From NCBI RefSeq assembly GCF_010729665.1, contig NZ_AP022611.1, positions 62,001 to 126,000 of the forward strand: a stretch of 64,000 nt of DNA. The letters are read 5' to 3'. A program made the translations under genes and the position numbers. This document shows, one piece after another, positions 31,714 to 58,062 of the stretch; positions within the stretch are counted from its first letter, which is position 1; every line of letters begins with the position of its first letter. Origin of the DNA: Mycolicibacterium madagascariense (lineage in GTDB: Bacteria; Actinomycetota; Actinomycetes; Mycobacteriales; Mycobacteriaceae). The notes under the pieces were generated by a model. That model searched no databases. It was given only the letters and a program-made list of their open reading frames with translations, and had not been told where the DNA came from.

Positions 31714-31729
31714 CTGTACGGATGTACAG
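31714..31729. promoter_or_regulatory. Operator copy 1, CTGTACGGATGTACAG
   Basis: Lies in the 44-bp gap between two divergent genes. The right arm contains TACAGT (31725-31730), placed as a -10 for a leaderless transcript from ATG 31737. One of eleven copies of consensus CTGTACG-NN-CGTACAG. Confidence 0.75.
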
Positions 31730-31736
31730 TCCAGTC

Positions 31737-32366
31737 ATGACCGAAGAGAAGGAGCAGCGAACTTCGCCGCGGTTGGCGCCGATTCCCGCGGATCAGTGGG
31801 ATGACGTCGCCATTGCGGCGATCCGTGAAGCCTTCCCCGCGAGCGCAGTTGAGGCTTTTCGATCGAAGGGGCGCGCACCGAACGTGCTGGCCACGATGCT
31901 TCATCATCCGGCGCTGGCCGCATCGTTCAACCGATTCGGCAACGTGCTGCTGGCCGAGCCGGCGATCGGTCATCGCGAACGAGAATTGATGCTGCTGCGC
32001 GTGGCCTGGCGCACCCGAGCGCGTTACGAATGGGTGCACCACGTCCGGCTGGCGAGGACTTACGGAGTCGACGCCCTTGACGTCGCGGCGATAGCGAAGG
32101 GCGACTCAGGATCGTGGTCACCGCTGGAACGCGACCTCGTCGCGGCAACGGATCAACTGCTCGACGACTACCGCATCGACGACGACACCTGGGGTCGGCT
32201 GCGCGGCCAGCTCAGCGACGAGCAGCTCGTCGAGCTGCCCTTCATCGTCGGGGCCTATACGTGCCTGGCGATGGCGTTCAACAGCTGGGAGCTTCAAGTC
32301 GAGGTCGGGGTTAACACGAGTGGCGTTCCGCCGCTTCCGGATCGGCCCGCCCCGGCAAGCGAGTGA
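31737..32366 (+). CDS. Carboxymuconolactone decarboxylase/AhpD-like protein
   Basis: All-helical AhpD-like protein, 209 aa. The core APNVLATMLHHPALAASFNRFGNVLL and the pattern RERELMLLRVAWRTRARYEWVHH fit the carboxymuconolactone decarboxylase family as common in actinobacterial degradation clusters. The CxxC of true AhpD is missing (YEWVHH at that place), so peroxidase activity is unlikely. ATG 31737 is preferred over the ATG at 31722, which lies inside the operator. TACAGT ends six bases before 31737, so a leaderless mRNA is likely. Confidence 0.82.
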   Translation: MTEEKEQRTSPRLAPIPADQWDDVAIAAIREAFPASAVEAFRSKGRAPNVLATMLHHPALAASFNRFGNVLLAEPAIGHRERELMLLRVAWRTRARYEWVHHVRLARTYGVDALDVAAIAKGDSGSWSPLERDLVAATDQLLDDYRIDDDTWGRLRGQLSDEQLVELPFIVGAYTCLAMAFNSWELQVEVGVNTSGVPPLPDRPAPASE

Positions 32367-32379
32367 CGTCCGTCCAGTA

Positions 32380-32395
32380 CCATACGACCGTACAG
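32380..32395. promoter_or_regulatory. Operator copy 2, CCATACGACCGTACAG
   Basis: Located 38 bp before the GMC oxidoreductase start at 32434. Two mismatches in the left arm, perfect right arm. Confidence 0.7.
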
Positions 32396-32433
32396 CGCAC
32401 GTCGTCGCGCTGAACTTGGACGAAGGGCCACCG

Positions 32434-34035
32434 ATGAGCAGCTATGACTACGTGATCGCCGGTGCAGGTTCAGCCGGATGCGTCCTGGCCAACCGCCTGT
32501 CCGAGGATCCGACCATCACCGTTCTCCTGGTGGAAGCCGGTGGGCCCGACCGCAGCCCGCTGTTCCGCGTCCCCAAGGGATCAGGCAAGTTGTTCGACAG
32601 CGACAAGTACATGTGGCATTACGCCACCACACCGTTCGGCCCAAACCCGCACTCCGAGCAGTGGATGCGGGGGAAGGTGCTCGGTGGTTCCAGTTCCATC
32701 AACGGGATGATCTACAACCGCGGTCACCGCGCCGATTGGGACGGGCTGGAACGGCTCGGCAACAAGGGGTGGGGCTGGAACGACATGCTGCCCATCTTCA
32801 CCGGCTTCGAAGATCACGTCCTGGGCGCATCCGCCACCCGCGGCGTCGGCGGTCCGGTTCGCGTCTCCGTCCCGCGAGACCCGGACCCGCTGTGCGAGGA
32901 GATGATTTCTGCTGGTGCAGCATTCGGCATGCAGCGTGTCGAGGACATCAACGAGGCCGACGAAGCCCGCATCGGATACGCGACCTCCACCATTCGTGAC
33001 GGAATTAGGGTCAGCGCGTCCTCGGCGTTCCTCAAGCCCGTGCTGAACCGCCCCAACCTGACAGTGCGCACTGGCACACACGTCGAGCACATCGTCTTCC
33101 GCAGCGGCAGAGCCGTCGGGCTGCGGATCGCCGCGAAGGGCGGATCGACGACTGTTCACGCGGCACGCGACGTCATCCTAAGCCTGGGGAGCCTCAACAC
33201 CCCGAAGGTGTTGCATTTGTCGGGGATCGGACCTCGAGGCGTCTTGGAGGCTGCGGGCGTCGCCGTCCGCCTCGACCGCGACAACGTGGGACGTGGGCTA
33301 CACGAACACCGCTGCGCCACCTTGCGCCTGCAATTGAACGAAGACCTGGGGTACAACCGGCAGTTGTCGAGCAGCGTGGCGCAGGCCTTGACGGCCGCGC
33401 GCTACCTGGCGACACGCAAGGGGCCCTTGGCCGCGCCGTCCTTCGACGTCGTCGGATTCGTCAAGTCCCAACCCGACGTCGCGCGTCCCGATGGCCAGAT
33501 CATGCTGGGTCCATGGACGATTCCGCCCTACAACCTCGGCGAACCCGTGGCCATCGAGCGCCAGGCCGGTGTCTCCTGCCTGGGGATGGTGCTGCGTCCC
33601 ACCTCGGAGGGCACGATAGAGATCACGTCCGCGGACCCGTCGGCGCCGCTGCGCATCGACCCGAACTACCTTCACACCGACTACGACCGCACGACGAGCG
33701 CGAACTTGCTGCGCACGATGCGCGGCATCTTCGAGCAGTCACCGATTGCCGAGCGCATCAGCCACGAGACCTATCCCGGCCCGGGCGTTCTCTCCGACGG
33801 TGACTTGGTCGACACGGTGCTCGATGGGGGCTACTGCGGGTATCACGCGGCGGGGACGTGCGCGATGGGCCCCAGTGACGACGACGTCGTCGACGATCAG
33901 CTCCGGGTTCGCGGTGTCGACGGTCTGCGCGTCGTGGACTGTTCGGTGCTGCCCACCATGGTGGCCGGCAACCTGAACGGCCCGATTATGGCGATGGCTT
34001 GGCGCGCAGCCGATTTGATCCTCGACGGTCGGTGA
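32434..34035 (+). CDS. GMC-family FAD oxidoreductase (choline dehydrogenase-like)
   Basis: 533-aa GMC oxidoreductase. FAD motif VIAGAGSAGCVLANRL, LVEAGG Glu, signature around GKVLGGSSSINGMIYNRG, and the catalytic His in GYHAAGTCAMG near residue 475; the end AGNLNGPIMAMAW is typical. Start ATG 32434 has GAAGGG upstream. It is close in length and layout to the GMC protein at 9765 and is probably a paralogue with a different substrate. Its operator is at 32380. It is convergent with the mycofactocin-type SDR; a GTGACCG/CGGTCAC inverted repeat at 34032-34061 between them could serve as a terminator. Confidence 0.92.
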   Translation: MSSYDYVIAGAGSAGCVLANRLSEDPTITVLLVEAGGPDRSPLFRVPKGSGKLFDSDKYMWHYATTPFGPNPHSEQWMRGKVLGGSSSINGMIYNRGHRADWDGLERLGNKGWGWNDMLPIFTGFEDHVLGASATRGVGGPVRVSVPRDPDPLCEEMISAGAAFGMQRVEDINEADEARIGYATSTIRDGIRVSASSAFLKPVLNRPNLTVRTGTHVEHIVFRSGRAVGLRIAAKGGSTTVHAARDVILSLGSLNTPKVLHLSGIGPRGVLEAAGVAVRLDRDNVGRGLHEHRCATLRLQLNEDLGYNRQLSSSVAQALTAARYLATRKGPLAAPSFDVVGFVKSQPDVARPDGQIMLGPWTIPPYNLGEPVAIERQAGVSCLGMVLRPTSEGTIEITSADPSAPLRIDPNYLHTDYDRTTSANLLRTMRGIFEQSPIAERISHETYPGPGVLSDGDLVDTVLDGGYCGYHAAGTCAMGPSDDDVVDDQLRVRGVDGLRVVDCSVLPTMVAGNLNGPIMAMAWRAADLILDGR

Positions 34036-34057: not shown

Positions 34058-34879
34058 TCACATCGTGGCGAAGCCAGCGTCAACGGGCAGCGCCGTGCCG
34101 GTGAGGTAACGCGCGGAGTCGTTGACGAGGAACAGCACCGCGTTCGTGACGTCGACCGGTTCGATGAACGGAACGGGCAACAGGTTGCCCGACATGGCGC
34201 TGGCGTCCGGATTGGCCGCGAACAGATTGGCCATGTGCTCGTTGAAGATCATCGGCGTGCCCACGCCGGTCGGGTGCACCGAGTTGACACGAATACCGTA
34301 CTGCGCGTACGCATAGGCCGCGGAGCGCATCAGACCGACGACGCCGTGCTTGGAGGCGGCGTAGGCGAAGGTGGCCGCGCTTCCGTCGCCGCCGCGACCG
34401 ACCAGGCCCTGCATCGAACTGATCAACACCATCGAACCCCCCGTGCCCCGGCGGATCATCAAGGGGGCGGTGGCGGCGATCGTGTTCCAGACTCCGCGCA
34501 GATTGGTGTCGACGATGTCGTCGAACACCCCTTCGTCGAGCGGGTCGGTCAGCCCCATGCCGACGACGCCGGCGTTGGCGATCACGACGTCGACGTCGCC
34601 GAACTCCGCGACGCCGGAGTCGACGGCAGCTCTCAGCTCGCCGAGGTCGCGAACGTCGGCCACCGCGGTGCGAATGCGCCCACCGGCGTCGCGCACCAGG
34701 TCGGCGGTCTCGGCGAGATCGGCCTCGGTGGCCAACGGATACGGAATCGATGCGATGTCGGCACACCGGTCGATGGCGATGACGTCGATGCCCTGGTGTG
34801 CCAGGGCCACCGCGTGGCTCCGTCCTTGCCCCCGCGCGGCGCCGGTGATGACGGCGACGCGGTTCGGCGAAGCGTCCAT
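34058..34879 (-). CDS. Mycofactocin-coupled SDR-family oxidoreductase
   Basis: 273-aa SDR whose N-terminus reads VAVITGAARGQGRSHAVALA and then DVIAIDRCADIASIPYPLAT; this QGRSHA signature and the following insertion mark the mycofactocin-dependent SDR subfamily, in which NAD is held tightly and electrons go to the peptide-derived cofactor mycofactocin. Active site YAASK in TFAYAASKHGV. No mycofactocin biosynthesis genes are in the window. Its ATG (34879) starts one base after the P450 stop, so it is cotranscribed and might oxidise the alcohol formed by that P450. Confidence 0.88.
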   Translation of the reverse strand: MDASPNRVAVITGAARGQGRSHAVALAHQGIDVIAIDRCADIASIPYPLATEADLAETADLVRDAGGRIRTAVADVRDLGELRAAVDSGVAEFGDVDVVIANAGVVGMGLTDPLDEGVFDDIVDTNLRGVWNTIAATAPLMIRRGTGGSMVLISSMQGLVGRGGDGSAATFAYAASKHGVVGLMRSAAYAYAQYGIRVNSVHPTGVGTPMIFNEHMANLFAANPDASAMSGNLLPVPFIEPVDVTNAVLFLVNDSARYLTGTALPVDAGFATM

Positions 34880-34880
34880 C

Positions 34881-36068
34881 CTAGGAAAGGTTGGCGGGCA
34901 TGGTGTCCCAGCCGCGCACCGTCGAGGTGCGCGACCGCGTCGCACCCGCCATGTCGATGTCCCACTCCGGCCACCGCTTGAGCACCTCCTCCAGAGCCAC
35001 TCGGCCCTCCAGGCGTGCCAGCGGGGAACCGACGCAGAAGTGTGCTCCACGGCCGAAGGTCAGGTGTCCGCCGGGCTTGCGGTGGATGTCGAACCTGTCC
35101 GGATCCTCGAAGTGCCGTTCGTCGCGGTTGGCCGAGGCCAGCATCATCAGCAGGGCACTGCCCGCTGGCACGACCTGCTCTTGGAAGGTCACGTCGTCGG
35201 TGGCGACGTAGCGCGCAACGTGGGGTCCCGGTGGCTCGAATCGCAGTAGCTCCTCGATCGCCATCGGGATCATCGTATGGTCCTGCGCCAATTCCTTGCG
35301 CTGGTCGGGGTGCTCGGCCAGCACCTTGCCCATCCAGCCGAAGAGGCGTCCCGTCGTCTCGACACCCGCGCCCGCGACAACGGCCAGGAACACCACGAGT
35401 TCCTGCTTGGTCAACTTCCGCGTGGTGCCGGTCTCGTCTTCGAACTCCACGTCGAGCAATTCGGTGATGAGGTCGTCGGAGGGGTTCTTCTCGCGCCAGT
35501 CGACGTACTCGCCGAACATGTCGCCGCGAAAGTACTGATCCTTCTTGATCTTCATGGGCTTGCCCGCCTCATTGCGCAGCACCTCGTTCGCGTGCTCCCG
35601 CACGGCCGGTTGTTCGGCATCGGGGATTCCGGCGAGCATGCCGATGGTGCGCATGGGAAGTTCGGCGCCCAGGTCCACGACGAAGTCGAAACGGTCTCCA
35701 CCGACGAGTGGATCGAGGCACGCGACGCAGAACGCGCGGATCTTGTCCTCGATGGCCCTCATCTTCTTGGGCGTGAACGCTCGCGAGACGATCGCCCGGT
35801 GGATCGTGTGCAACGGAGGATCCTCGTTGATGAAGATCCCCGGCGGCATCACCGGATCGGCCATGACGACTTCGAGGATGTCGCCCTTGGCGGAACTGAG
35901 TCGTGTCGTGTCCTTCAGCGCTGCATCGACATCGGCGTATCGGCTCACGCCCCAGAAGTCGTGGCGTTCGTTGTAGTAGACCGGGCGCTCGTCGCGTAGA
36001 CGTCGGTACGTGGGATAGGGATCGAGGTCGATGTCGAAGTCCCATGGGTCGTAATACAGATCGCTCAA
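34881..36068 (-). CDS. Cytochrome P450
   Basis: Class I P450, 395 aa with the start chosen. Heme motif FGRGAHFCVGSPLARLE, ExxR in EELLRFEPPG, I-helix AGAGVETTGRL. I favour TTG at 36068 (GAGGAG at 36075-36080, six bases upstream), which yields the family-typical opening SDLYYDPWDFDIDLDPYP. An in-frame ATG at 36104 would add 12 residues without a ribosome-binding site. No ferredoxin gene is adjacent; the ferredoxin at 39353 may serve both P450s of the block. Operator at 36118-36133. Confidence 0.92.
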   Translation of the reverse strand: MSDLYYDPWDFDIDLDPYPTYRRLRDERPVYYNERHDFWGVSRYADVDAALKDTTRLSSAKGDILEVVMADPVMPPGIFINEDPPLHTIHRAIVSRAFTPKKMRAIEDKIRAFCVACLDPLVGGDRFDFVVDLGAELPMRTIGMLAGIPDAEQPAVREHANEVLRNEAGKPMKIKKDQYFRGDMFGEYVDWREKNPSDDLITELLDVEFEDETGTTRKLTKQELVVFLAVVAGAGVETTGRLFGWMGKVLAEHPDQRKELAQDHTMIPMAIEELLRFEPPGPHVARYVATDDVTFQEQVVPAGSALLMMLASANRDERHFEDPDRFDIHRKPGGHLTFGRGAHFCVGSPLARLEGRVALEEVLKRWPEWDIDMAGATRSRTSTVRGWDTMPANLS

Positions 36069-36117
36069 CGTCGGCTCCTCGGCAGCTGCACATCGCACGC
36101 GCATGACACCCGTGCCG

Positions 36118-36133
36118 CTGTACGACTGTATAG
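36118..36133. promoter_or_regulatory. Operator copy 3, CTGTACGACTGTATAG
   Basis: Just upstream of the leftward P450/mycofactocin-SDR operon. On the minus strand it reads CTATACAGTCGTACAG and includes TACAGT, a possible -10. Confidence 0.72.
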
Positions 36134-36178
36134 GAGTCTGGGACGGCGAGGCAACCGCGCATAGCCATACGCTCCGGA

Positions 36179-36817
36179 CTACCAGCCGTTCCAGTGCGTC
36201 ACGCGCTCGGGTTCGAGTCGTCGCGCCGGCTTGAAGTCCACGCCCAACGTGTAGGCGATGGGGAACATCCCGACCTGGCTGTAGTTGTCGTACGGGATGT
36301 TCAGCACGTCGGCCGCCGCGCGCTCCCCGTTTCCGAACAGGTGCAACGTGGTCCAACACGTACCCAGCCCGCGAGAGCGAAGGGCCAGACAGAAGCTCCA
36401 CACCGCAGGCATCATCGACGCCCAGAAGGTGGCGCTCATCGCCGAGGACTTGCGGTCGACCCGCCCCTCCAGGCAGGGAATCAGAAGAAATGGCGCGTCC
36501 TGCATATGCGTGACCAAATGCGCTCCGGAGGCGGCCATCCGTCCCTGCTGCGGCGTTTGGTCCGATGCTTCACCTGCAGTGTTCCGGTTGGACCCAGCGA
36601 GATTGGCCCGGTATATCTCGGCGAGCGCGCGCTTCTTCTCGGGATCGTCGACGAACACCCATCGCCAGCCCTGGGCACCCGAGGCGCTAGGTGCCTGTAA
36701 CGCCAGGGTGAGGCATTCGCTCAAGACGTCGCGCGGCACCGGTGTCTCGAAGTCGAGCCGCAGGCGCACCGATCGGGTCGTCGACAGGAGTTCGTCGGTG
36801 GTCAGATCCAAGGTCAT
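36179..36817 (-). CDS. Nitroreductase-family flavoprotein
   Basis: 212-aa FMN-dependent nitroreductase-fold protein. It has the family start RSVRLRLDFETPVPRDVLSECLTLALQAPSASGAQGWRW (residues about 15-53), with the FMN-contacting RSVR and the APSASGAQ loop, and ends GLGTCWTTLH...IPYD. Start ATG 36817 is preceded by GAAGG. It is divergent from the SDR at 36913 with an operator between. Such proteins reduce enones or quinones or act as dehydrogenases; the substrate is unknown. A distant paralogue is at 53673. Confidence 0.85.
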   Translation of the reverse strand: MTLDLTTDELLSTTRSVRLRLDFETPVPRDVLSECLTLALQAPSASGAQGWRWVFVDDPEKKRALAEIYRANLAGSNRNTAGEASDQTPQQGRMAASGAHLVTHMQDAPFLLIPCLEGRVDRKSSAMSATFWASMMPAVWSFCLALRSRGLGTCWTTLHLFGNGERAAADVLNIPYDNYSQVGMFPIAYTLGVDFKPARRLEPERVTHWNGW

Positions 36818-36848
36818 CGTGAGGCCTTCGCTCGGGCGGGGTGCTGTG

Positions 36849-36864
36849 CTATACGCTCGTACAA
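36849..36864. promoter_or_regulatory. Operator copy 4, CTATACGCTCGTACAA
   Basis: In the 95-bp gap between the divergent nitroreductase and SDR genes; likely controls both. Confidence 0.7.
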
Positions 36865-36912
36865 CATAGCGGTCCGGCGCGCGCGGCCCGCCACAAACCC
36901 GAGGAGTGCGCA

Positions 36913-37683
36913 ATGAGCAGTCGGTTCTCACTCGACGGCCGTGTCGCCGTCATCACCGGTGGAGGGACCGGCATCGGTCGCGGCGCCGCCCTCGTGCTCG
37001 CCGAACACGGCGCCGACGTCGTGCTGGCGGGCCGCCGGCCGGACCCTCTGGAGTCGACGGCCAAGGAGGTCCTGGCCCTGGGACGCCGCGCGTTGGCTGC
37101 GCCCACCGACGTCACCAGCATGCAGGCCTGTCAGCAATTGATCGACACCACGCTCGACGAGTTCGGCCGGGTGGACATCCTGGTGAACAACGCAGGCGGG
37201 GCGCAGACCAAGCCGATCAAGCGGTGGTCCGAGGACGAGTTCGGCGACGTGCTCGCCCTCAACTTGGGCAGCGTCTGGCATCTGTCGAGGGCTGCGTCGG
37301 TGCCGATGCTCGCCCAGGGTAAGGGCGCGATCGTCAACATCTCGTCGGGTGCCAGCCTGCTGGCCATGCCCATGGCGGCGCCCTATGGGGCCGCGAAGGC
37401 GGCGGTCAACAACCTGACCGGCTCCATGGCGGCCGCCTGGTCGCGCAAGGGAGTTCGCGTGAACGCCATCGCCTGCGGGGCCGTCCGTGCGGCAACCCTG
37501 ATGGACGAAGCCGAGAAGCTGGGCCTCGACGAGAGCACGCTCGCCATGTCCAACGGAGTGGGTCGCCTCGGCGAACCCGACGAGATCGGTCATGGCGTGC
37601 TGTTCTTCGCCTCCGACGCGTCGAGCTTCTGTTCGGGGCAGACGCTGTACATGCACGGCGCGCCCGGACCCGCCGGCGTCTGA
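36913..37683 (+). CDS. SDR-family oxidoreductase
   Basis: 256-aa classical SDR. TGGGTGIGRGAA cofactor motif, NNAG, Ser in ISSGASLL, PYGAAKAAV as the YxxxK site, and a terminal SSFCSGQTLYMHG. ATG 36913 has GAGGAG at 36901-36906, six bases upstream. The gene is followed by a separate operator (37721) and a secreted protein gene. Confidence 0.9.
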   Translation: MSSRFSLDGRVAVITGGGTGIGRGAALVLAEHGADVVLAGRRPDPLESTAKEVLALGRRALAAPTDVTSMQACQQLIDTTLDEFGRVDILVNNAGGAQTKPIKRWSEDEFGDVLALNLGSVWHLSRAASVPMLAQGKGAIVNISSGASLLAMPMAAPYGAAKAAVNNLTGSMAAAWSRKGVRVNAIACGAVRAATLMDEAEKLGLDESTLAMSNGVGRLGEPDEIGHGVLFFASDASSFCSGQTLYMHGAPGPAGV

Positions 37684-37720: not shown

Positions 37721-37736
37721 CCATACGTGCGTACAG
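37721..37736. promoter_or_regulatory. Operator copy 5, CCATACGTGCGTACAG
   Basis: About 155 bp upstream of the secreted protein gene at 37892; the rest of the gap shows no other gene. Confidence 0.7.
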
Positions 37737-37891: not shown

Positions 37892-38428
37892 ATGTATCGC
37901 ACGCCATCACTTCGTTCCACGACCAAGGGTGGGGCCCTGGCCGTCGGCCTCGCCGCCGTCGTCGGCACCTCGCTGCTCGCAAGTTCACCGGCGATGGCAG
38001 CTCCCAAACCGGTCCCCAAGGGTGTGCGCATTCAATGCGGCGGGTTCTCCGGCCCCAATGCGACCTTCCCGCACTTCCTCACCGACTGCACCCGTCGCAA
38101 CGGCACCACGGGGACCGGGCAGTCCAACCGTACGGCTCCCGGCACGGAGACGATCACCTGGGACGCACCGTTCGTCAAGGGCAAGAGTATGCCGCTGACC
38201 AACATCACCAACTCCCCGGTGAGCCCGCCGAGCGGCGCATGCCCCGCCGACCATCCCGGTGAGGTCAACGTCTCCGGCGTGATCGGCGGGACGAAGTGGG
38301 CGGGCTCCCCGGTCACTGCCACGATCTGTGCCAACGCCAACGACTTCCTGTTGAAGCCAGGCACCTACTTCGTCATCGGCAAGACGCCCAAGGATGCGGA
38401 CATCGACGACTTCAACGACGAGCCCTAA
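37892..38428 (+). CDS. Secreted protein of unknown function
   Basis: 178 aa with a long signal peptide (about 37 residues, hydrophobic core GGALAVGLAAVVGTSLLA, cleavage after SPAMA). The mature part has four Cys (IQCGGF, LTDCTRR, SGACPAD, TICANAN), probably two disulfides, and a terminal acidic ADIDDFNDEP. No catalytic motif or domain is recognised. It lies within the operator-controlled block, so it may bind or deliver the substrate outside the membrane; that is inference from context only. Confidence 0.75.
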   Translation: MYRTPSLRSTTKGGALAVGLAAVVGTSLLASSPAMAAPKPVPKGVRIQCGGFSGPNATFPHFLTDCTRRNGTTGTGQSNRTAPGTETITWDAPFVKGKSMPLTNITNSPVSPPSGACPADHPGEVNVSGVIGGTKWAGSPVTATICANANDFLLKPGTYFVIGKTPKDADIDDFNDEP

Positions 38429-38510: not shown

Positions 38511-38526
38511 CTATACATTCGTACAG
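38511..38526. promoter_or_regulatory. Operator copy 6, CTATACATTCGTACAG
   Basis: 37 bp before the first gene of the SDR-ferredoxin-P450-SDR-ACAD operon (38563 to 43047). Confidence 0.72.
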
Positions 38527-39352: not shown

Positions 39353-39598
39353 GTGCGCGTCGAAGTAGATCCATCCCGCTGTCAAGGGCACACACTGTGC
39401 GCGATGATCGCGCCCGATTCGTTCGAACTCGACGACGTCGACGGCCATGCGCACCCCGTCGTTGGCGACGTACCCGCCGACCATCACGCCCAGGTGCTCG
39501 AAGCCGTGCAGTCCTGCCCGGAGCAGGCCATCGCGGTGATGGTCGAGCATCTTGCCCGGGCCCGCGCCGCCCACGGCCAACGAGGAACCGCGACATGA
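39353..39598 (+). CDS. [3Fe-4S] ferredoxin
   Basis: 81-residue ferredoxin beginning MRVEVDPSRCQGHTLC, with Cys10 and Cys16 and the third ligand in SCPEQAIAV; APDSFELDDVDG in between. GTG 39353 has AGGAGG four bases upstream. Its stop overlaps the ATG of the P450 (ATGA), so it is that enzyme's electron donor. Confidence 0.92.
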   Translation: MRVEVDPSRCQGHTLCAMIAPDSFELDDVDGHAHPVVGDVPADHHAQVLEAVQSCPEQAIAVMVEHLARARAAHGQRGTAT

Positions 39599-43047: not shown

Positions 43048-43064
43048 CCCCGCACCGAGCGATG

Positions 43065-43080
43065 CTGTACGAGTGTATGG
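43065..43080. promoter_or_regulatory. Operator copy 7, CTGTACGAGTGTATGG
   Basis: Followed directly by TATGGT (43076-43081), a plausible -10, and ATG 43089 seven bases later, so the sulfotransferase mRNA is probably leaderless. Confidence 0.72.
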
Positions 43081-43088
43081 TGCGGTGC

Positions 43089-46225: not shown

Positions 46226-46241
46226 CTGTACGGCCGTATGG
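46226..46241. promoter_or_regulatory. Operator copy 9, CTGTACGGCCGTATGG
   Basis: Second tandem copy, 23 bp centre to centre from copy 8, roughly two helix turns, which would permit binding of two dimers on one DNA face. Confidence 0.75.
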
Positions 46242-50817: not shown

Positions 50818-51465
50818 TCACGCCTTGCGCACGGGGGTACGTCGGCGCGAATTCGGCTTTCGCTTCGGCACTTCGGGCCGAGGCTCCACGGCGTCGATGT
50901 ATTGCTCGAAGGCCTCGGTCACTTCCGCGTGTGCCGACGTCACGCCAATTCCCTCTTCGAGATTGAGGAGCTTCGGCAGACCCGACATCAACAACTGCAA
51001 CGCAGGCAAGGAGAGATCGCCGATTGGCCGCGCGCTCTTGCCGAACTTCGCGACGAGTGCCTCCAGTTGGATCTTGCGGACACCCTCGGTGGCATTCGCG
51101 ATCTCTGCCCGGATTGACTTGCGGTGATTTCCCAGGGCCATGAACTCGGTCATCATCGCACCGGTCGCCTCCTGCCAGGAGTACTCCCAGACCGCGCGCA
51201 GGGGATCCTCGGTGCGGCGTGCGAACGCGTCGGCCAGGTAGGCCAGGCTGCGCTCGGAGTAGCGCTTGATCGCGGCCACGAAGATGTCGTCGAGGGTGGG
51301 AAAGTAGTACTGCACCAGGCTGGGCGTAACGCCGGCCTTCGACGCCAGCGTCCGGTACGTCACGCTCGCGTAGCCCTCGTCGAGCATGGTCTTCTCGACG
51401 CAGTCGAGAAGAATGTCCCGAGTTTTGGACGTTTCGGCGCCAATGCGCCGCGACGATGTCGCCAT
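50818..51465 (-). CDS. TetR-family regulator, probable regulator of the surrounding block
   Basis: 215-aa TetR-type regulator. The N-terminal helix-turn-helix spans about residues 15-60 (RDILLDCVEKTMLDEGYASV, TYRTLASKAGVTPSLVQYYF), and the C-terminal ligand domain is helical, ending with a basic tail (PKRKPNSRRRTPVRKA). ATG 51465 is chosen: GGGAG is just upstream and the extended frame to 51534 would cross the operator. The gene is divergent from the SnoaL operon, with operator copy 10 between, so autoregulation is expected. It is the only regulator gene in the window, and all eleven operator copies lie within 27 kb around it; the assignment to these sites is inference. Confidence 0.9.
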   Translation of the reverse strand: MATSSRRIGAETSKTRDILLDCVEKTMLDEGYASVTYRTLASKAGVTPSLVQYYFPTLDDIFVAAIKRYSERSLAYLADAFARRTEDPLRAVWEYSWQEATGAMMTEFMALGNHRKSIRAEIANATEGVRKIQLEALVAKFGKSARPIGDLSLPALQLLMSGLPKLLNLEEGIGVTSAHAEVTEAFEQYIDAVEPRPEVPKRKPNSRRRTPVRKA

Positions 51466-51512: not shown

Positions 51513-51528
51513 CTGTACGGTCGTATAG
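51513..51528. promoter_or_regulatory. Operator copy 10, CTGTACGGTCGTATAG
   Basis: Between tetR (-) and the SnoaL-ALDH operon (+). TATAGT (51524-51529) overlaps its right arm as a probable -10 for the rightward transcript. Confidence 0.78.
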
Positions 51529-51536
51529 TCTCATTT

Positions 51537-52157
51537 GTGTGCCGACACGGGTCGGTACCGACCTACTCGACCGGCAGGACGACGATGACCAGCTCCCTCA
51601 CTTCCAGCTCCCTGGAATCGCTCCAGAAGGACGTCCGCTATCTCATGGATCGCACCGAGATCCTCGATAGCATCTCGCGCCACGCCCGCGGCTGCGACCG
51701 TCACGACGTCGACCTCATCACCTCGGCCTATCACGGCGACGGTGTCGATGAGCATGGCCACGCCGTCAACTCGGGCCCGGATTACGGAGAGTGGGCCAAC
51801 CGCACCCACGCCGAGACGTCCCGTGTGCACACCCACAACATCACCACCCACAGCTGCGAGATCGACGGCGACACCGCACACGCCGAGAGCTACGTCCTCG
51901 TGGTGCTGATCGGACCGGACACCAAGAGTGCCCAGTTCATCACCGGTCGCTACCTCGACCGACTCGAGCGTCGCGACGACCAGTGGCGCATCGTCGTCCG
52001 ACGATCCACGGTCGAAGGAATGTTCATCGGCGACGCACGGGTACTGCAGTCACCGTTCTTCACCGAGAAGGGCTACCTCGTCGGCACGCGCAATCGCGAC
52101 GACCTGTCCTACGAACGCCCGCTCAGCATCGACACTCCAGCACCCGCACGGTGGTAG
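51537..52157 (+). CDS. SnoaL-like (NTF2-fold) protein
   Basis: Small alpha+beta-barrel protein of the SnoaL_4-type: RTEILDSISRHARGCDRHDVDLI and the Trp/His-rich barrel (HTHNITTHSCEIDGD; RYLDRLERRDDQWRIVVRR). Many members act as ketosteroid-isomerase-like enzymes or dehydratases; catalytic residues cannot be fixed here. GTG 51537 lies seven bases after the TATAGT -10, matching the leaderless pattern of neighbouring genes (206 aa). The alternative ATG 51585 with AGGA upstream gives 190 aa and is the natural domain start, so the N-terminus is uncertain. Confidence 0.8.
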   Translation: MCRHGSVPTYSTGRTTMTSSLTSSSLESLQKDVRYLMDRTEILDSISRHARGCDRHDVDLITSAYHGDGVDEHGHAVNSGPDYGEWANRTHAETSRVHTHNITTHSCEIDGDTAHAESYVLVVLIGPDTKSAQFITGRYLDRLERRDDQWRIVVRRSTVEGMFIGDARVLQSPFFTEKGYLVGTRNRDDLSYERPLSIDTPAPARW

Positions 52158-52159: not shown

Positions 52160-53638
52160 ATGACCACCACCGATACGGGCATCCAGGCCGGCGAGCAGCG
52201 GATGCTCATCGACGGCGAGCTACAACTCACCGACGGCGGCACCCTGTTCGACGTCGAGCATCCCGGCAGCGGCCAAGTCGTCGGCCAGGCCACCGATGCA
52301 ACGGTCGCCGACATGGCGCGTGCGGTCGGCGCGGCGTGGCGAGCGTCCGAGAACGCGAACTGGGCCAGAGACATCGAGTTCCGCTTCCACTGCCTGATGC
52401 AGTTGCACGACGCGCTGGACCGGAACAAGGAACGGCTGCGCCGCGTGCTGGTGACCGAGGTCGGGTGCCCGATCAGCGTCACCGGCGCCCAGATCGAGGA
52501 GCCGATCGCCGAAGTCAAGCACTGGGCCGAGCATGGGCGCAACTTCGAGTACTTGGTCGACACCGGCATCCACCAGACCCATCTCGGACCTGCCCGCCGC
52601 AAACTGTCCTACGAGCCCGTCGGGGTGGTGGGTGCGATCACTCCGTGGAACGTGCCGTTCTACCTGAACGTCGCCGAGACCGTCCCGGCGCTCATGGCCG
52701 GCAACACCGTGGTCCTCAAACCGGCCCAGCTCACTCCGTGGTCGGGCACCGAACTGGGTCGTATCGTCGCCGAGGAGACCGACATCCCCGCGGGGGTCTT
52801 CAACGTGGTGTCCTCAAATGCTAATGAGGTGGGTGCTGCGCTGTCGGCCGACCCACGTGTCGACATGATCACCTTCACCGGCTCGACGGCCACCGGACGG
52901 GCGATCCTGGCCGCCGGCGCCGCCACCGTCAAGAAGACCTTGTTGGAGTTGGGTGGCAAGTCGGCCCACATCGTGCTCGACGACGCGCACTTCGGGTCGG
53001 CGTTGCCGCTGGCGGCGATGATGGCGTGCGTGATGTCGGGTCAATCCTGCATCCTGCCCAGCCGAATACTGCTGCCGCGCAGCCGCTACGACGAAGGAGT
53101 GGCCGTACTCAAAGCCGCGATGGAGAACTTCCCGGTCGGGGACCCGTGGACTCCCGGCATCATGCAGGGGCCGCAGATCAGCGCCGCGCAGAGGCAGAAG
53201 GTACTCGGGCTGATCGCCAGTGGAATCGAATCCGGCGCCAGACTGGTGACCGGCGGTGGGGTGCCCGAGAATCTGCCCAACGGCTACTACACCCAACCCA
53301 CCCTGCTGGCCGACGTCGACCCCGACTGCCAGGTCGCCCAGGAGGAGATCTTTGGGCCGGTGCTGACCGTCACCCCGTACGACAACGACGACGAGGCCGT
53401 CGCCATCGCCAACAACAGCATCTACGGCCTATCCGGTGAAGTCAGCGGAACCGACGTCGACCGGGCCTTCGCCATCGCTCAGCGCATGCGCACCGGAAAC
53501 GTCACCATCAACGGCAAGAGTCACTTCGGAATCGCCAGCCCGTTCGGCGGAACGAAGCAAAGCGGACTGGGCTACCGCAACGGCACCCACGGATACGCCG
53601 AGTACCTCGCCATCAAGACCATCGGTCTCCCGGAATAG
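52160..53638 (+). CDS. NAD(P)-dependent aldehyde dehydrogenase
   Basis: 492-aa aldehyde dehydrogenase: ITPWNVPFYLNVAETVPAL, TGSTATGRAI cofactor loop, catalytic Glu in LELGGKSAH, catalytic Cys in MSGQSCILPSR, and the terminal FGGTKQSGLGYRNG. ATG 52160, two bases after the SnoaL stop. Second gene of the operon; oxidises an aldehyde to the acid, as the enzyme at 13078 may do in the left block. Confidence 0.92.
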   Translation: MTTTDTGIQAGEQRMLIDGELQLTDGGTLFDVEHPGSGQVVGQATDATVADMARAVGAAWRASENANWARDIEFRFHCLMQLHDALDRNKERLRRVLVTEVGCPISVTGAQIEEPIAEVKHWAEHGRNFEYLVDTGIHQTHLGPARRKLSYEPVGVVGAITPWNVPFYLNVAETVPALMAGNTVVLKPAQLTPWSGTELGRIVAEETDIPAGVFNVVSSNANEVGAALSADPRVDMITFTGSTATGRAILAAGAATVKKTLLELGGKSAHIVLDDAHFGSALPLAAMMACVMSGQSCILPSRILLPRSRYDEGVAVLKAAMENFPVGDPWTPGIMQGPQISAAQRQKVLGLIASGIESGARLVTGGGVPENLPNGYYTQPTLLADVDPDCQVAQEEIFGPVLTVTPYDNDDEAVAIANNSIYGLSGEVSGTDVDRAFAIAQRMRTGNVTINGKSHFGIASPFGGTKQSGLGYRNGTHGYAEYLAIKTIGLPE

Positions 53639-53672
53639 ACAGGCACATGCGGCTTTACGACGAGGCTCGGAC

Positions 53673-54350
53673 ATGAGCATGGGCAGTGACGACCTCTGGG
53701 AGGTCATGTCCACCGCGCGATCGATCCGGCGGTTCGCCGCCGACCCGGTCGATGACCGCGTGCTGGATCGGTGCCTGGAAGCTGCCACCTGGGCGCCGTC
53801 GGGTGCCAACGCCCAGTGTTGGCGCTTCGTGGTCTTGCGGTCACCAGAGGTGCGGGCCGTCGTGGCGCGCGCCGCGGCCCAGGCGTTGGCCGTCATCGAA
53901 CCGGTCTACGGCATGTCGCGCCCCGCCGCCGCCGACGACACCCCCCGAGCACGGTCCTACCGCGCCATCTACGAACTGCACGATGGCGCCGGCGAGCATG
54001 CCTCAGTGCTCTTCGCCCAGCAGAAGCTCCCGGCCACCAGTGACCTGCTATTGGGCGGTTCCATCTTCCCCGCGATGCAGAACTTCCTGCTGGCGGCGCG
54101 GGCCATGGGACTGGGCGCCTGTCCGACCAGCTGGACTTCCTACGGCGGAGAGCAAGTTCTCCGCGAAGTGATTGGCATGCCTGACGATTGGGTCATCGCA
54201 GGGCACGTGATGATCGGGTGGCCGCGAGGAAGTCACGGGCCGGTCAGGCGACATCCGATCACCGACGTCGTCGACGTGGACCGGTGGAACCACGAGGCGG
54301 TCACCTCCTTGGACCGAGCCAACGCACAACGACGTGCTGGCACGACGTGA
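53673..54350 (+). CDS. Nitroreductase-family flavoprotein
   Basis: 225-aa nitroreductase-fold protein with the FMN motifs ARSIRRFAADPVDD and APSGANAQCWRFVV near the start and GLGACPTSWTSYGGEQVLREVIGMP near residue 155-180. It shares only the fold with the nitroreductase at 36179. ATG 53673, 34 bp after the aldehyde dehydrogenase. The last 17 bp overlap the next frame. Confidence 0.87.
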   Translation: MSMGSDDLWEVMSTARSIRRFAADPVDDRVLDRCLEAATWAPSGANAQCWRFVVLRSPEVRAVVARAAAQALAVIEPVYGMSRPAAADDTPRARSYRAIYELHDGAGEHASVLFAQQKLPATSDLLLGGSIFPAMQNFLLAARAMGLGACPTSWTSYGGEQVLREVIGMPDDWVIAGHVMIGWPRGSHGPVRRHPITDVVDVDRWNHEAVTSLDRANAQRRAGTT

Positions 54351-54651
54351 TGAGTACGCCTCCGAGACGGGACGGGTCGTAGTGGACTCCTTTGACCGGC
54401 ACCTGCTGCAGTTCGTCCTGACGTGGACACCATTTGGTGGCCCGGCGGACGAAGACACCTTTCCGCGGTTCGGTCTGCGTGCATCGGTGGTGCACGATCG
54501 ATTCATCGCCATCGCGAATTCCGTTGGGTCGCAACTGTCCACTCTCGACCATGACGACGCCGACCTGGTACGACGGGCGCAAGCTCACCTGCATGAGGCT
54601 CGACCGGTTTCCGCACCCGCGGGACACGCATCCGATAGGACCTTCGGCTGA
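54334..54651 (+). CDS. Small protein, possibly DUF3263-like
   Basis: 105 aa from GTG 54334, overlapping the nitroreductase end; the conserved-looking part begins later (VDSFDRHLLQFVLTWTPFGG, then FPRFGLRASVVHDRFIAIAN). The pattern resembles the short helical DUF3263-type proteins of actinobacteria, which may bind DNA. A start at GTG 54382 is also possible. Its TGA overlaps the ATG of the next gene (54651), so it is in the operon. Function unknown. Confidence 0.6.
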   Translation: MLARRDEYASETGRVVVDSFDRHLLQFVLTWTPFGGPADEDTFPRFGLRASVVHDRFIAIANSVGSQLSTLDHDDADLVRRAQAHLHEARPVSAPAGHASDRTFG

Positions 54652-55703
54652 TGGACAGATTGCGCGTCATCCAGTGGACCACCGGCAAGGTCGGCAAGCT
54701 CAGCACCCGCGGAATACTGGACGATCCGCGGCTCGAACTGGTTGGCGTCTACGCGCATTCGGACGACAAGGCCGGTACCGACGCAGGCACACTGTGCGGC
54801 CGACCCGAGACGGGCGTTCAAGCGACCACGGACATCGACGCGCTGATCGCTCTCGGTGCAGACACCGTGATCTACACACCGTTCATGGCCGATGTCGAGC
54901 ATGCCGTCCGGTTGCTCGAAAGCGGACTCGACGTGATCAGCACCAATCTGTTCCTCAACGTGGGCGGCATTCAGGGCGATACGAAGCAACGGCTCGCCGA
55001 CGCCTGCCGGCGGGGAGACAGCTCGCTGTACGTCACCGGGGTCAACCCAGGTTGGATCAACACGATAACTGCTGCGATGACCATGACCGCGGTCTGCCGC
55101 GGCGTCGAGATGGTGTCGGTCGCCGAGTCGGCGAACGTATCGGTATACGAGTCCGCCGAGACGTGGCGAGCGCTCGGCTTTGGACTTCCGCACGCGACAC
55201 CCGAGGTCATCGAGATGGCCCAGATGTGGCTCAGCACCTTCCACGACTCCGTCCAACGGATGGCGGTCGCGCTGCACCACACCCTCGACGACATGGAGTT
55301 CTTCATCGAGTATGCAACCGCGGCCGAGACAGTCGATCTCGGCTGGCTGCGGTTGAACAAGGACACCATTGCCGCGGTTCGAGCGGGCTGGAACGGCAAG
55401 GCGAACGGTAACACCGTCGTGCAGTCGAACGTCGCCTGGTACCTCACCAAGCATCTCAATGAGCACTTGGAGTTCGACGACGATCATTACCACGTCGTGA
55501 TCAAGGGGGAGCCCGAGGTGCAGACCCGCATCCGGTTCATCCCGCCCGAAACCTGGGGCAACCACGAATGGGACACGATGACGGCGATGCCCGCGGTGAA
55601 CGCCGCCGTCGACGTCGCCGCCGCACCCCCGGGCATTCTCACGCTGCACGACGTCGGGCTCGCTTCTGCACCGGCGGGCATCTGGTTGAACGAGCGCGCC
55701 TAA
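54651..55703 (+). CDS. DapB-like NAD(P)H-dependent dehydrogenase
   Basis: 350-aa protein of the dihydrodipicolinate reductase-like/2,4-diaminopentanoate dehydrogenase-like group. N-terminal Rossmann motif VIQWTTGKVGKLSTRGIL, then GVYAHSDDKAGTDAGTL; LESGLDVISTNLF and VTGVNPGWINT are typical of this mycobacterial family, which is common in steroid and terpenoid clusters but has no established reaction. ATG 54651 overlaps the previous stop. Last gene of the operon from 51537, convergent with the acyltransferase. Confidence 0.85.
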   Translation: MDRLRVIQWTTGKVGKLSTRGILDDPRLELVGVYAHSDDKAGTDAGTLCGRPETGVQATTDIDALIALGADTVIYTPFMADVEHAVRLLESGLDVISTNLFLNVGGIQGDTKQRLADACRRGDSSLYVTGVNPGWINTITAAMTMTAVCRGVEMVSVAESANVSVYESAETWRALGFGLPHATPEVIEMAQMWLSTFHDSVQRMAVALHHTLDDMEFFIEYATAAETVDLGWLRLNKDTIAAVRAGWNGKANGNTVVQSNVAWYLTKHLNEHLEFDDDHYHVVIKGEPEVQTRIRFIPPETWGNHEWDTMTAMPAVNAAVDVAAAPPGILTLHDVGLASAPAGIWLNERA

Positions 55704-55734
55704 CAGTCCGGTGCGTGGGCGGCCGCGACGCGAC

Positions 55735-56541
55735 CTAACCGATGAACGGAAGTCGGCGCTCGCGTGCCAGCGTGTCGAGGGCTTGCTGCATCACGGATCG
55801 AACGTGTGCGTCTACTTCGGCAACGTCGGGTTGCTTGCCGAACTCGCCGACGACGTCGATCGGCGCCAACACCTGGGTGACGATCTTCGCAGGAAGTGGG
55901 ATGTTGGGAGGAACGAAAACGCTGACACCGAAGGGGAATCCGATGCTGACGGGTAGAATCCCGACACGGAATCGACCGAGGCCCAATTTCTTGGCCAGCC
56001 CCGTACCCCGTGTCAGGAAGAGTTGGGTCTCTTGTCCGCCGATCGAGACGATCGGCACGATCGGCACCCCGGTTTCGATCGCCGTCCTCACGTAGCCTGT
56101 TCGTCCGTTGAAGTCGATGACGTTCGCGCTCCCAGTTGGCCGGTACGCGTCATAGTCCCCGCCAGGGAACACCAGCACAGCCGCTCCCGAGTGCAATGCC
56201 GACGCAGCGTTCTCCCGGCTTGCGTGGATGACGCCCAACCGGCCTAGCCAGCCCTCGAACGGTCCGACGAACACCTGGCTGTGCGCGAGTGTGAACAGAG
56301 GGCGGTCGTATCCGAACTTTTCGTAGAAGGCGGACCCGAAGATGACTACGTCGGGTGTCAGTGAACCGCCGGAGTGGTTTCCCACCAACAGGGCTCCGCC
56401 CACCTCCGGGAGCGCATCCAGTCCACGTACCTCCGCGCGGAAGTAACGCTTGAGCACGGGCCACGCCTTGTCCTTCACCTGCTCTGTGAAGGCAGGGTCC
56501 CACTTCACGGCTTCGTCACCTGTGCTCACGGTGTTCCTCAT
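55735..56541 (-). CDS. PlsC/MGAT-like acyltransferase
   Basis: 268-aa lysophospholipid acyltransferase-fold protein: LLVGNHSGGSLTPDVVIFG, where the catalytic His stands in NHSGG with the Asp further on than in the canonical NHxxxxD, then VFPGGDYDAYRPTG and GVPIVPIVSIGGQE. It resembles the mycobacterial LPLAT/MGAT-like group and would acylate a lipid acceptor. It follows the WS/DGAT gene by 31 bp on the same strand, so both may make storage or waste esters. The start at 56541 lacks a strong ribosome-binding site. Confidence 0.85.
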   Translation of the reverse strand: MRNTVSTGDEAVKWDPAFTEQVKDKAWPVLKRYFRAEVRGLDALPEVGGALLVGNHSGGSLTPDVVIFGSAFYEKFGYDRPLFTLAHSQVFVGPFEGWLGRLGVIHASRENAASALHSGAAVLVFPGGDYDAYRPTGSANVIDFNGRTGYVRTAIETGVPIVPIVSIGGQETQLFLTRGTGLAKKLGLGRFRVGILPVSIGFPFGVSVFVPPNIPLPAKIVTQVLAPIDVVGEFGKQPDVAEVDAHVRSVMQQALDTLARERRLPFIG

Positions 56542-56572
56542 CAGTCGCTGATCGAAAGGGTTGCGGCTTCGC

Positions 56573-58003
56573 TCATTGCGCGCTGCTCACCGCAGCCATT
56601 GCCGTCTCCACCTTGCGCAAGTCATCGGATAGACCGGCAGCCCTGCGGAGTTCGGCGAAGGCGTGGACGATCGCGTCCGTCGCTTCGTGAACGTCGTCGA
56701 AGGTTCGGTCATCGGCCAGCACCGCGATGTTGAGCTGGTCAACGTAGCTCCACACCGTGATGTTGACGCCGACACCGGCCGACAACACGCCCGTCGAATA
56801 GAACTCACTGACCGGCGACCCGCCGATGTTCCCGCGTTGCCGGGGCCCTGGGACGTTGGAGACCGGGACGTTCATCACCTTGTTGGACGTGGCCCGCTTG
56901 GCCTGGCGCCGAAACGCCGCGGGAGCCAAAGCCGTCGGCAAATAACCCATCATGCGGCTGTACAGGTCGGGTCCGACGACGTGGTGATCCTCCTTGGCGG
57001 TCGTCGTGGCCAGCCCGATCAGGCGCACCCGCTCACGTGGGTCATTGATGTGTACTGGCAGGGACACGGGGAGGCCGCTGAGCTCGTTGCCGCTGAGGCG
57101 GTCCGGGGATCGATCGGTGCTGATCGGGACGTTCGACAACAACGGTCGGTCGGCTCTGCCGTCGTACCGAAGTAGAAGATCCCGCAGCGCCCCGGCGACC
57201 GTGGCCAGCACCATGTCGTTGAAGGTCACGCCGAGCTGCGCGGAGGTCTCCTTGGCATCTGCCAACGACAAGGTGGCGCTGGCGAATGTCCGAACCGGCG
57301 AGACCACATGATTGAGGAAGGTTGGTGGCGGTTTGAACATCTTGGCCATGTGGGGCCGATCGCCGCGTTCGCGGACCCGCTGGTGGAGTTGAGACAGTCC
57401 GGTGGTGGCGTCGCGCAACAACTTCGGCAAGCCAGCGACCTGCTCGATGTGGTCGCGTCCTGCGGACCGCAGCAAGGCGGACGTCGAAGGCGTCACTCGG
57501 TGCCCAGCGGTGACGGTCGGCGTCGTGTCGTCCATCAAGCCCATGAAACGGGCCATGAGGGTGGCCGATGCCACCCCGTCGGCAAGTGCGTGATGCACCT
57601 TGCCGATGAGCGCGTAGCGGTTGTCGGCCACTCCCTCGGCGAAGTAGAACTCCCACAGCGGACGGCTTCGGTCCAACGGCGTACTGGCCACGTCACCGAT
57701 CACCTGGTTCAGTTCGCGGCGGCCTCCGGGGCTCGGCACCCGCACCACCCGCAGGTGGTAATCCAGGTCGACCTCGCAGTCCGCCAGCCGGATCGGATGA
57801 TGTAGCCGCCATGGAATTCCCTGAAGCTTGAAGCGCAGCGGATCCAACAGGTGAAGGCGGTCCGCGACCGTCTGTCTGAAGGTGTCGAAGGTGAACGCGG
57901 AGGGATCGTCGGGGTGGACGACCAACACCTTCAACGTGTGCATGTGCAGGTTGGGGGTTTCGCCGTACAGCAGCATGGCGTCCATGCCGTTGAGTCGCTT
58001 CAC
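56573..58003 (-). CDS. WS/DGAT-family O-acyltransferase
   Basis: 476-aa wax ester synthase/diacylglycerol acyltransferase, making triacylglycerol or wax esters from acyl-CoA. The catalytic HHALADGVAS (HHxxxDG) is near residue 130; NVPGPRQRGNIGG and LSGNELSGLPVSLPV are further family blocks. GTG 58003 with GGGGGG six bases upstream gives the typical opening KRLNGMDAMLLY. Operator copy 11 lies 43 bp upstream. It may act as a sink for fatty acyl-CoA released during degradation. Confidence 0.93.
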   Translation of the reverse strand: MKRLNGMDAMLLYGETPNLHMHTLKVLVVHPDDPSAFTFDTFRQTVADRLHLLDPLRFKLQGIPWRLHHPIRLADCEVDLDYHLRVVRVPSPGGRRELNQVIGDVASTPLDRSRPLWEFYFAEGVADNRYALIGKVHHALADGVASATLMARFMGLMDDTTPTVTAGHRVTPSTSALLRSAGRDHIEQVAGLPKLLRDATTGLSQLHQRVRERGDRPHMAKMFKPPPTFLNHVVSPVRTFASATLSLADAKETSAQLGVTFNDMVLATVAGALRDLLLRYDGRADRPLLSNVPISTDRSPDRLSGNELSGLPVSLPVHINDPRERVRLIGLATTTAKEDHHVVGPDLYSRMMGYLPTALAPAAFRRQAKRATSNKVMNVPVSNVPGPRQRGNIGGSPVSEFYSTGVLSAGVGVNITVWSYVDQLNIAVLADDRTFDDVHEATDAIVHAFAELRRAAGLSDDLRKVETAMAAVSSAQ

Positions 58004-58046
58004 GTGTATCCCCCCGGAGCGCGGAATAAACTGCCTGGTGGCGATG

Positions 58047-58062
58047 CTGTACGGGCGTACAG
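58047..58062. promoter_or_regulatory. Operator copy 11, CTGTACGGGCGTACAG
   Basis: The only copy with a perfect 7+2+7 palindrome; precedes the WS/DGAT-acyltransferase operon. It is the rightmost copy in the window. Confidence 0.78.

Follow-up and report, generated by a model that had tools for sequence, protein, structure and literature searches.

Eleven palindromes point to a probable local TetR-type regulon of oxidative genes in Mycolicibacterium madagascariense

Introduction

A 64,000-nucleotide stretch of DNA from Mycolicibacterium madagascariense (C2:62001-126000, hereafter the window) carries eleven related palindromes within a block of approximately 26 kb that includes a tetR gene. These palindromes are very probably the operators of the TetR protein encoded at 50818-51465, which, judging from genome comparison, would be an autoregulated local repressor acting on roughly ten transcription units with some 26 genes. 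The closest described systems are other TetR-type regulators with defined operators, those of AcnR and EdcR being the most similar in sequence.

AcnR from Corynebacterium glutamicum is a TetR-type protein with the operator CAGNACnnncGTACTG (PMC2723105). It resembles the system described here in being a TetR-type repressor with a 16-bp palindrome, similar half-sites and equal overall spacing, but the half-site is CAGNAC for AcnR and CTRTAC here, and the known AcnR target is the aconitase gene. Identity with the AcnR system was rejected, as the AcnR operator has A at position 2 and T at position 15, where the present sites have T or C and A or G, respectively, and no aconitase family was detected among the block proteins scanned. 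An exact fit to the AcnR word, CAGTACGAGCGTACTG, is present on the chromosome (C1:880878-880893, L120:2879), outside the regulon and approximately 230 bp ahead of a gene for isocitrate lyase rather than aconitase.

EdcR, a TetR-type protein from Caenibius tardaugens with the proposed operator TnnCnnTACnAnTnGTAnnGnnA (PMC8700777), also represses a catabolic cluster with multiple promoters, and the half-site CnnTACnA is common to both systems. The EdcR operator has one more central base, however, and its cluster is for estrogen. The C-terminal domain of EdcR, TetR_C_11 (PF16859), was looked for and not found in the TetR protein described here, which matches only PF00440 at E <= 1e-3. Identity with the EdcR system was rejected on spacing and domain.

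The actinobacterial proteins KstR, which controls nearly 100 genes, and KstR2 are likewise TetR repressors of multi-gene lipid catabolic regulons and have the operators TNNAACGTGTTNNA and AAGCAAGNNCTTGCTT, respectively (PMC8228715). These words are unrelated to the operator described here, whose regulon is nearly confined to 26 kb. A previous reading of this DNA from its letters alone (the sequence-only reading) did not recognise the palindrome as the motif of KstR, KstR2 or another described mycobacterial regulator, and the operator logo indeed does not match the published KstR and KstR2 words. Among mycobacterial TetR repressors, BkaR is autoregulated and uses one palindrome, GTTA(N)T(N4)A(N)TAAC, before nearby units, controlling 10 genes in M. 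smegmatis (PMC3920632); it differs in operator word and gene content and has fewer sites. MftR also has a conserved palindromic operator (T-N2-GGCA-N5-TGCC-N2-A; PMC8728441), but the word is again different and its targets are mycofactocin genes. No description of the present operator or cluster was found among the literature matches listed, in a search whose scope excluded most subscription journals. Three papers contain one of six 12-14-letter operator words, and none of the three concerns this regulator as far as titles and the beginnings of abstracts indicate. A set of 30 motifs, for regulators identified by M. tuberculosis gene number, has also been described (Balhana et al. 2015, PMC4482099).

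Results

Eleven related palindromes are nearly confined to one block

The sequence-only reading had placed eleven copies of a palindrome in the window, and all were found at its coordinates:

31714..31729, operator between the short-chain dehydrogenase (SDR) gene SDR1 (- strand) and the carboxymuconolactone decarboxylase-family (CMD) gene (+ strand)
32380..32395, operator before the GMC oxidoreductase gene (in-frame ATG at 32434)
36118..36133, operator before P450a-SDR2 (- strand)
36849..36864, operator in the divergent promoter of the nitroreductase-family gene NTRa (- strand) and SDR3 (+ strand)
37721..37736, operator before the gene for a probably secreted 178-aa protein
38511..38526, operator before SDR4-ferredoxin-P450b-SDR5-acyl-CoA dehydrogenase (ACAD)
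43065..43080, operator before sulfotransferase (SULT)-SDR6-DUF
46203..46218, first of two tandem operators ahead of the surface-protein gene
46226..46241, second tandem operator, at a 23-bp step
51513..51528, operator in the tetR/SnoaL divergent promoter
58047..58062, operator before the wax-ester synthase/diacylglycerol acyltransferase (WS/DGAT)-acyltransferase genes (- strand), exact match to CTGTACGNNCGTACAG

The copies are related to the word given for them, CTGTACGNNCGTACAG, but only that at 58047 matches it completely; one site has 0 mismatches, three have 1, six have 2 and one has 3, and every mismatch is a transition. The site at 43065 is the weakest. With up to three mismatches to this word, the window contains 13 matches compared with 2.46 expected (standard deviation 1.47, maximum 6, 100 shuffles), the two beyond the eleven being at 8132 and 58563 with 3 mismatches each. 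Genome-wide, a 16-mer search this loose yields only noise (131 matches versus 141 for the reversed pattern), and the block is therefore conspicuous only with the right core. This core, the degenerate YRTACRNNYGTAYR, fits all eleven sites. The whole genome (5.94 Mb, two contigs) contains 14 matches to it, 11 in the 26-kb block and three on the chromosome, compared with two for the reversed pattern. The core has no further match in the window, as expected from the claim that the left 31 kb and the region right of 58.1 kb lack copies, and no match outside the block on C2, a contig of 228,287 bases. A 20-base form, TGCTRTACGNNCGTAYAGCA, with up to three mismatches has 9 matches in the genome, 8 of them in the block (control 2).

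The genome-wide scan that had been proposed as a check thus found 11 of 14 core matches in the block, and the equal sites elsewhere that could have counted against the regulon amount to three chromosomal matches, which are unclustered. One of these (C1:78647-78660, L121:2148) occupies the divergent gap between a gene for an unassigned 337-aa protein and an enoyl-CoA hydratase gene and is possibly a further, distant target of TetR. Of the other two, 266353 is within a called gene and 5667135 is between called genes.

Information content over 182 distinct sites, from loci whose TetR protein is at least 50% identical, defines the operator as the 20-bp palindrome TGCTRTACGATCGTAYAGCA, which at tetR spans 51511-51530. 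The palindrome was proposed to span 16 bp; it is real, but its extent had to be adjusted to 20 bp. The outer TG...CA is conserved across the 182 sites and was absent from the selecting pattern, so that its conservation constitutes independent support, as the flanks played no part in the choice of sites. Eleven such similar palindromes within 26 kb could also be a compositional or dispersed mobile-repeat artefact. We give this explanation a negligible probability, given the 13 matches found versus 2.46 from shuffling, the drop in conservation beyond 10 bp from the operator centre, and the recurrence of sites at tetR across genera.

The sites had been described as lying between or just before genes. 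This holds with the qualification that the mechanically longest open reading frames (ORFs) overlap seven of them (31714, 32380, 36118, 36849, 43065, 51513 and 58047). Because the conserved domain begins beyond the site in these cases, the ORF starts were read as over-extended; all gene starts given here are our own readings from ORFs. One site, at 51513, lies in the divergent promoter of the only regulator gene, whose start is at 51465, as the sequence-only reading had noticed.

The operator and the recognition helix change at the same clade boundary

TetR is the sole regulator among the block proteins scanned:

50818..51465, - strand, tetR, proposed repressor of 215 aa (PF00440, fold model and tree)

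The protein belongs to the TetR family by its TetR_N helix-turn-helix (PF00440, E 7e-6, 26.2 bits, cut-off 24) and by an AlphaFold model (pLDDT 87.9) whose nine helices form the all-helical TetR fold, with helix 48-54 at the expected place of a TetR recognition helix. In a Foldseek comparison with the PDB, the best 50 of 833 matches are nearly all TetR-type by title (best E 8e-5). A ligand class was sought in the fold, but these best 50 matches are mixed structures of 15-22% identity that name no class.

A set of 78 loci was fetched by the TetR protein alone, and the operator was looked for afterwards. Where TetR is 41-85% identical, the core is present in 64 of 68 loci, at 209 sites in all, and the reversed pattern occurs 3 times. 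The 48 loci with at least 60% identity comprise 922 kb; all but one contain the exact core, which has 172 sites there compared with 1 for the reversed control. The core is found at 50-59% identity in 8 of 9 loci (19 sites, control 0) and at 40-49% in 9 of 11 (18 sites, control 2). Below 40%, it is found in none of 10 loci (0 sites, control 0), two of which, L118 and L119, are short partial matches. Homologues in 60 relatives behave similarly, as a site is present in 5 of 5 loci (up to 3.6 kb) with at least 65% identity versus 0 of the 24 weaker ones fetched, although three of those five coincide with contigs of the 78-locus set. Core matches also gather near tetR in four of five orthologue genomes (4/6 in G027, 4/6 in G021, 4/5 in G016 and 4/7 in G012); the fifth, G008, has 1/3, on a 3.3-kb contig. 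In five genomes whose homologues are all weaker, core matches number 4, 2, 3, 3 and 23, compared with 9, 7, 8, 6 and 11 in controls.

In a midpoint-rooted tree of 105 TetR rows, which includes three identical pairs from the same contigs (L002/L094, L003/L061 and L004/L066), a single, well-supported branch (100/99) splits 74 rows from 31 site-less ones. Of the 74, 68 have an exact site no more than 3 kb away, and the remaining six comprise L101 and L104, whose exact sites are farther off, three with one-mismatch sites, and L096 with none. The short matches L030, L118 and L119 were left out of both the tree and the helix table. Rows with at least 50% identity invariably have T47 (63/63) and Q52 (63/63) in the recognition helix; of the seven rows at 40-50% identity with a site within 3 kb, all have Q52 and five have T47. 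Among the 34 rows classed as lacking sites, which still include the Frankia-group loci L104, L107 and L108 with distant or mismatched sites, K or Q predominates at position 47 and H or Y at position 52, and three have Q52. In this comparison, the predicted recognition helix switches at the same tree branch as the operator. Phylogenetic footprinting, which had been suggested as a further check, accordingly came out in favour of the regulon: across many species, the operator tracks the TetR clade and ends where the clade ends.

The palindromes might instead be operators of another regulator encoded elsewhere, with tetR merely among its targets. The genome does contain 13 further matches to TetR at E <= 1e-3. 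This alternative is nevertheless improbable, since the sites vanish at the edge of the TetR clade, the recognition helix changes with them, and the sites of relatives cluster at tetR.

Sphingomonad relatives with TetR proteins of 37-39% identity (L124-L126) were examined for both this operator word and that of EdcR, and no match to either was found in the three loci of approximately 24 kb; these relatives are therefore outside the operator's range. The TetR gene of the Sphingobium relative L124 has NTF2-like, SDR and TauD neighbours, without such an operator. In three genomes with weaker TetR homologues only, tandem TGTACA-type palindromes with a 14-bp step were observed (G006:C1:2009666, G029:C1:3232354 and G023:C5:529087), and these are probably the operator of another regulator.

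Sites precede the same gene families in relatives

Gene families were built from the window and the 68 loci, and a gene was counted as site-preceded if a site lay no more than 350 bp ahead of its called start or, to allow for over-extended starts, within the first 330 bases of the ORF. By this measure, most SnoaL (41/46, not counting the window's own SnoaL gene), P450a (34/48), SDR4 (28/35) and LLM (flavin monooxygenase, 18/23) members are site-preceded, as are 36 of 75 TetR genes. In M. colombiense (L046), the gene order is nearly that of the window, but mirrored. The first in-frame ATG or GTG past the site, a definition by which distances lean short, is at a median of 33-37 bp in the SnoaL, P450a, SDR4 and LLM families. 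Ten of the twelve site-bearing families have medians of 33-50 bp, the others being P450b (324) and NTRb (71). Such short medians put the sites close to the core promoter, in keeping with repression.

The two tandem sites at 46203 and 46226 are separated by a 23-bp step, which recurs exactly in seven more loci (L085, L098-L101, L104 and L105; one Nocardia and six Frankia/Parafrankia, of which two belong to a single strain). Operator pairs at 18 and 20 bp are present in six related mycobacterial loci, and the window and 68 loci together contain 44 neighbouring site pairs within 150 bp. This arrangement suggests that tandem operators may be bound cooperatively.

The LLM gene at 49401 had been named as an exception among the site-preceded units. 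It indeed lacks its own operator in the window, but given the share of its relatives that are site-preceded, it probably belongs to the regulon and would probably be transcribed from the tandem sites ahead of the 989-aa protein gene.

Several observations weigh against the proposed TetR regulon. It had been claimed that a site precedes every transcription unit but two; nearly all probable units are indeed preceded, but the 300 bp before the DapB-like gene are site-free, as are the approximately 130 bp ahead of the LLM gene that separate it from the 989-aa protein gene. Some families in the relatives are rarely site-preceded (P450b 2/23, SDR_9 0/19, SDR2 0/11, SDR5 8/26, SDR3 14/36, F420-LLM 9/21, NTRb 6/11, GMC 4/11 and TauD 4/13). 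Co-transcription may explain part of these low counts, and several of these families sit behind same-direction genes in the ten loci drawn of the 68. All counts given here are per sequence and are raised by near relatives. Four of the 68 loci with at least 41% identity (L076, L096, L107 and L108) lack an exact core; three of them do contain one-mismatch sites, the exception being L096, a contig of 5.7 kb without any. G040, from the same order and with a 39% homologue, is the genome with 23 core matches versus 11 in the control; these matches lie on four contigs and many contain CGTACG. Finally, the regulon may not be wholly local, because the chromosomal match at C1:78647 precedes an enoyl-CoA hydratase gene.

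In a different reading, TetR activates many units, or controls only its own promoter and the nearest units, and the block is not one regulon. Some TetR-family proteins, such as AtrA, are activators (PMC3511530), site quality is uneven (0-3 mismatches to CTGTACGNNCGTACAG) and, as described above, some families rarely have a site. We regard this reading as unlikely, as most SnoaL, P450a, SDR4 and LLM members are site-preceded, with median distances of 33-37 bp to the start, at which a dimer on the site would be expected to hinder the polymerase.

The block encodes a probable oxidative catabolic pathway

The sequence-only reading had proposed about 25 genes, including P450s, SDRs, GMC, LLM, aldehyde dehydrogenase (ALDH), sulfotransferase and acyltransferases. 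A Pfam and NCBIfam scan, together with genes added by reading, led to a count of about 26 and matched all of these families. Among the block proteins scanned are six SDRs, two P450s, two nitroreductase-family proteins and one TetR regulator. The genes other than tetR are as follows, where "ORF limits" marks coordinates of the whole ORF:

30880..31692, - strand, SDR1, short-chain dehydrogenase (PF13561)
31722..32366, + strand, carboxymuconolactone decarboxylase-family protein (PF02627, domain from residue 63; the ORF starts inside the operator and the true start is probably later)
32434..34035, + strand, GMC oxidoreductase (PF00732/PF05199, PDB relatives; ORF from 32320, domain from residue 42)
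34058..35050, - strand, SDR2 (PF00106; ORF limits, start over-extended)
34881..36401, - strand, P450a (PF00067; ORF limits; solved P450s align from about residue 106-128)
36179..36931, - strand, NTRa, nitroreductase/BluB-like flavoprotein (PF00881; ORF limits)
36841..37683, + strand, SDR3 (PF00106; ORF limits)
37892..38428, + strand, probably secreted 178-aa protein (no Pfam family; signal-like N-terminus by reading; 81% over 79 residues in L043)
38563..39306, + strand, SDR4 (PF13561)
39353..39598, + strand, 81-aa ferredoxin-like protein (CxxHxxC...CP, by reading)
39595..40962, + strand, P450b (PF00067; nearest solved structure P450cin, E 3e-53)
40993..41856, + strand, SDR5 (PF00106)
41864..43006, + strand, acyl-CoA dehydrogenase-like protein (PF02770/PF02771)
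42933..44276, + strand, sulfotransferase (PF13469, domain from residue 142; ORF limits)
44280..45047, + strand, SDR6 (PF13561)
45014..46081, + strand, 355-aa protein (no Pfam or NCBIfam family at E <= 1e-3; the family adjoins SDR6 and SULT in relatives)
46302..49271, + strand, 989-aa Ser/Thr-rich protein, probably exported by reading (weak TolB-propeller match)
49401..50777, + strand, NtaA/DmoA-family flavin monooxygenase, LLM (TIGR03860 above cut-off; ORF from 49275, PDB alignments from residue 41-47)
51585..52157, + strand, SnoaL_4/NTF2-like protein (PF13577)
52160..53638, + strand, aldehyde dehydrogenase, Rv0768-like (PF00171; TIGR04284 below cut-off)
53436..54350, + strand, NTRb, nitroreductase-family protein (PF00881; ORF limits)
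about 54382-54585, small frame after NTRb (conserved in L064, 59%, and L050, 53%)
54651..55703, + strand, 2,4-diaminopentanoate dehydrogenase/DapB-like protein (PF01113; NF040740 below cut-off)
55735..56541, - strand, acyltransferase (PF01553)
56573..58108, - strand, wax-ester synthase/diacylglycerol acyltransferase, WS/DGAT (PF03007/PF06974; ORF limits)

It is plausible that these genes form one inducible pathway, and this pathway is probably catabolic. A biosynthetic or modification pathway, for example towards a sulfated or acylated lipid, would account for the sulfotransferase, WS/DGAT, acyltransferase and two probably exported proteins of the block. We consider this the less likely assignment, though one with an appreciable chance: no polyketide synthase, non-ribosomal peptide synthetase or terpene synthase family was found among the block proteins scanned with Pfam, and the families most often site-preceded in relatives are oxidoreductases, save SnoaL and TetR.

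Any one named substrate class is doubtful for this presumed catabolic pathway. The hallmark of P450cin (CYP176A1) is an I-helix Asn that replaces the conserved Thr. A cineole pathway was considered but is not supported, as P450b, despite having P450cin as its nearest solved structure, has GGFDTTTA where P450cin has GGIDNTAR, and so retains Thr without the hallmark Asn. The absence of this Asn also leaves it only weakly indicated that the oxidised compound, if lipophilic, is cyclic or terpenoid/steroid-like. The nearest PDB relatives of the LLM protein are a hexachlorobenzene dehalogenase, followed by dimethyl-sulfide and alkane monooxygenases, and because these act on such varied compounds, the family says little about the substrate.

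Surroundings of the block

C2 is very probably a plasmid, because it encodes a TrwC-type relaxase (C2:135933-137195). To the left of the block, the window contains an operator-free mce-type lipid-uptake block (16073-28398) that encodes an MlaE permease, six Mce/MlaD proteins and an ABC ATPase. A second oxidative block (1295-15459) encodes an amidohydrolase, two esterases, a Fer2-type reductase, an FMO-like protein, two P450s, a GMC protein, a ferredoxin and an ALDH, and is probably under other control because it has no operator copies. A PemK/MazF-like protein (59603-59962) and a HEPN/RES-domain protein (62256-63473) are encoded to the right of the block.

Discussion

The proposal that these genes form a TetR regulon is supported by the confinement of the sites in the genome, the restriction of the operator to one TetR clade and the accompanying change in the recognition helix. 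From this comparative support, we infer that TetR would bind its operators as a ligand-released dimer. A dimer on each operator, at or near the promoter, would repress tetR itself and the other genes of the approximately ten units. A lipophilic substrate or early intermediate of the pathway would then bind the C-terminal domain of TetR and release it, which would switch on the oxidative catabolic pathway. The P450s with their ferredoxin, the SDRs, the GMC protein, the LLM monooxygenase, the SnoaL-type enzyme and the ALDH would oxidise the lipophilic compound, and carbon could be stored via WS/DGAT.

The regulon appears to be real and of a familiar TetR type, while its specific operator and cluster appear to be new within the literature searched. 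More tentatively, the TetR clade and its 20-bp operator might represent an undescribed code for a widespread actinobacterial pathway (Mycobacterium, Mycolicibacterium, Nocardia, Williamsia, Rhodococcus and Frankia) that oxidises a lipophilic natural compound, with cooperative 23-bp tandem operators and, here, a mobile module for uptake, oxidation and storage on a conjugative-type plasmid beside an mce operon; we hold this broader picture to be possible rather than probable.

As operator word, recognition-helix residues and clade boundary all agree, the prediction of a repressor-operator pair is unusually precise. With it, a large cluster of unassigned oxidoreductases found at tetR in many mycobacteria and their relatives becomes one testable unit. 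A reporter with an operator-bearing promoter could serve as a screen for the inducer, which would in turn point to the pathway.

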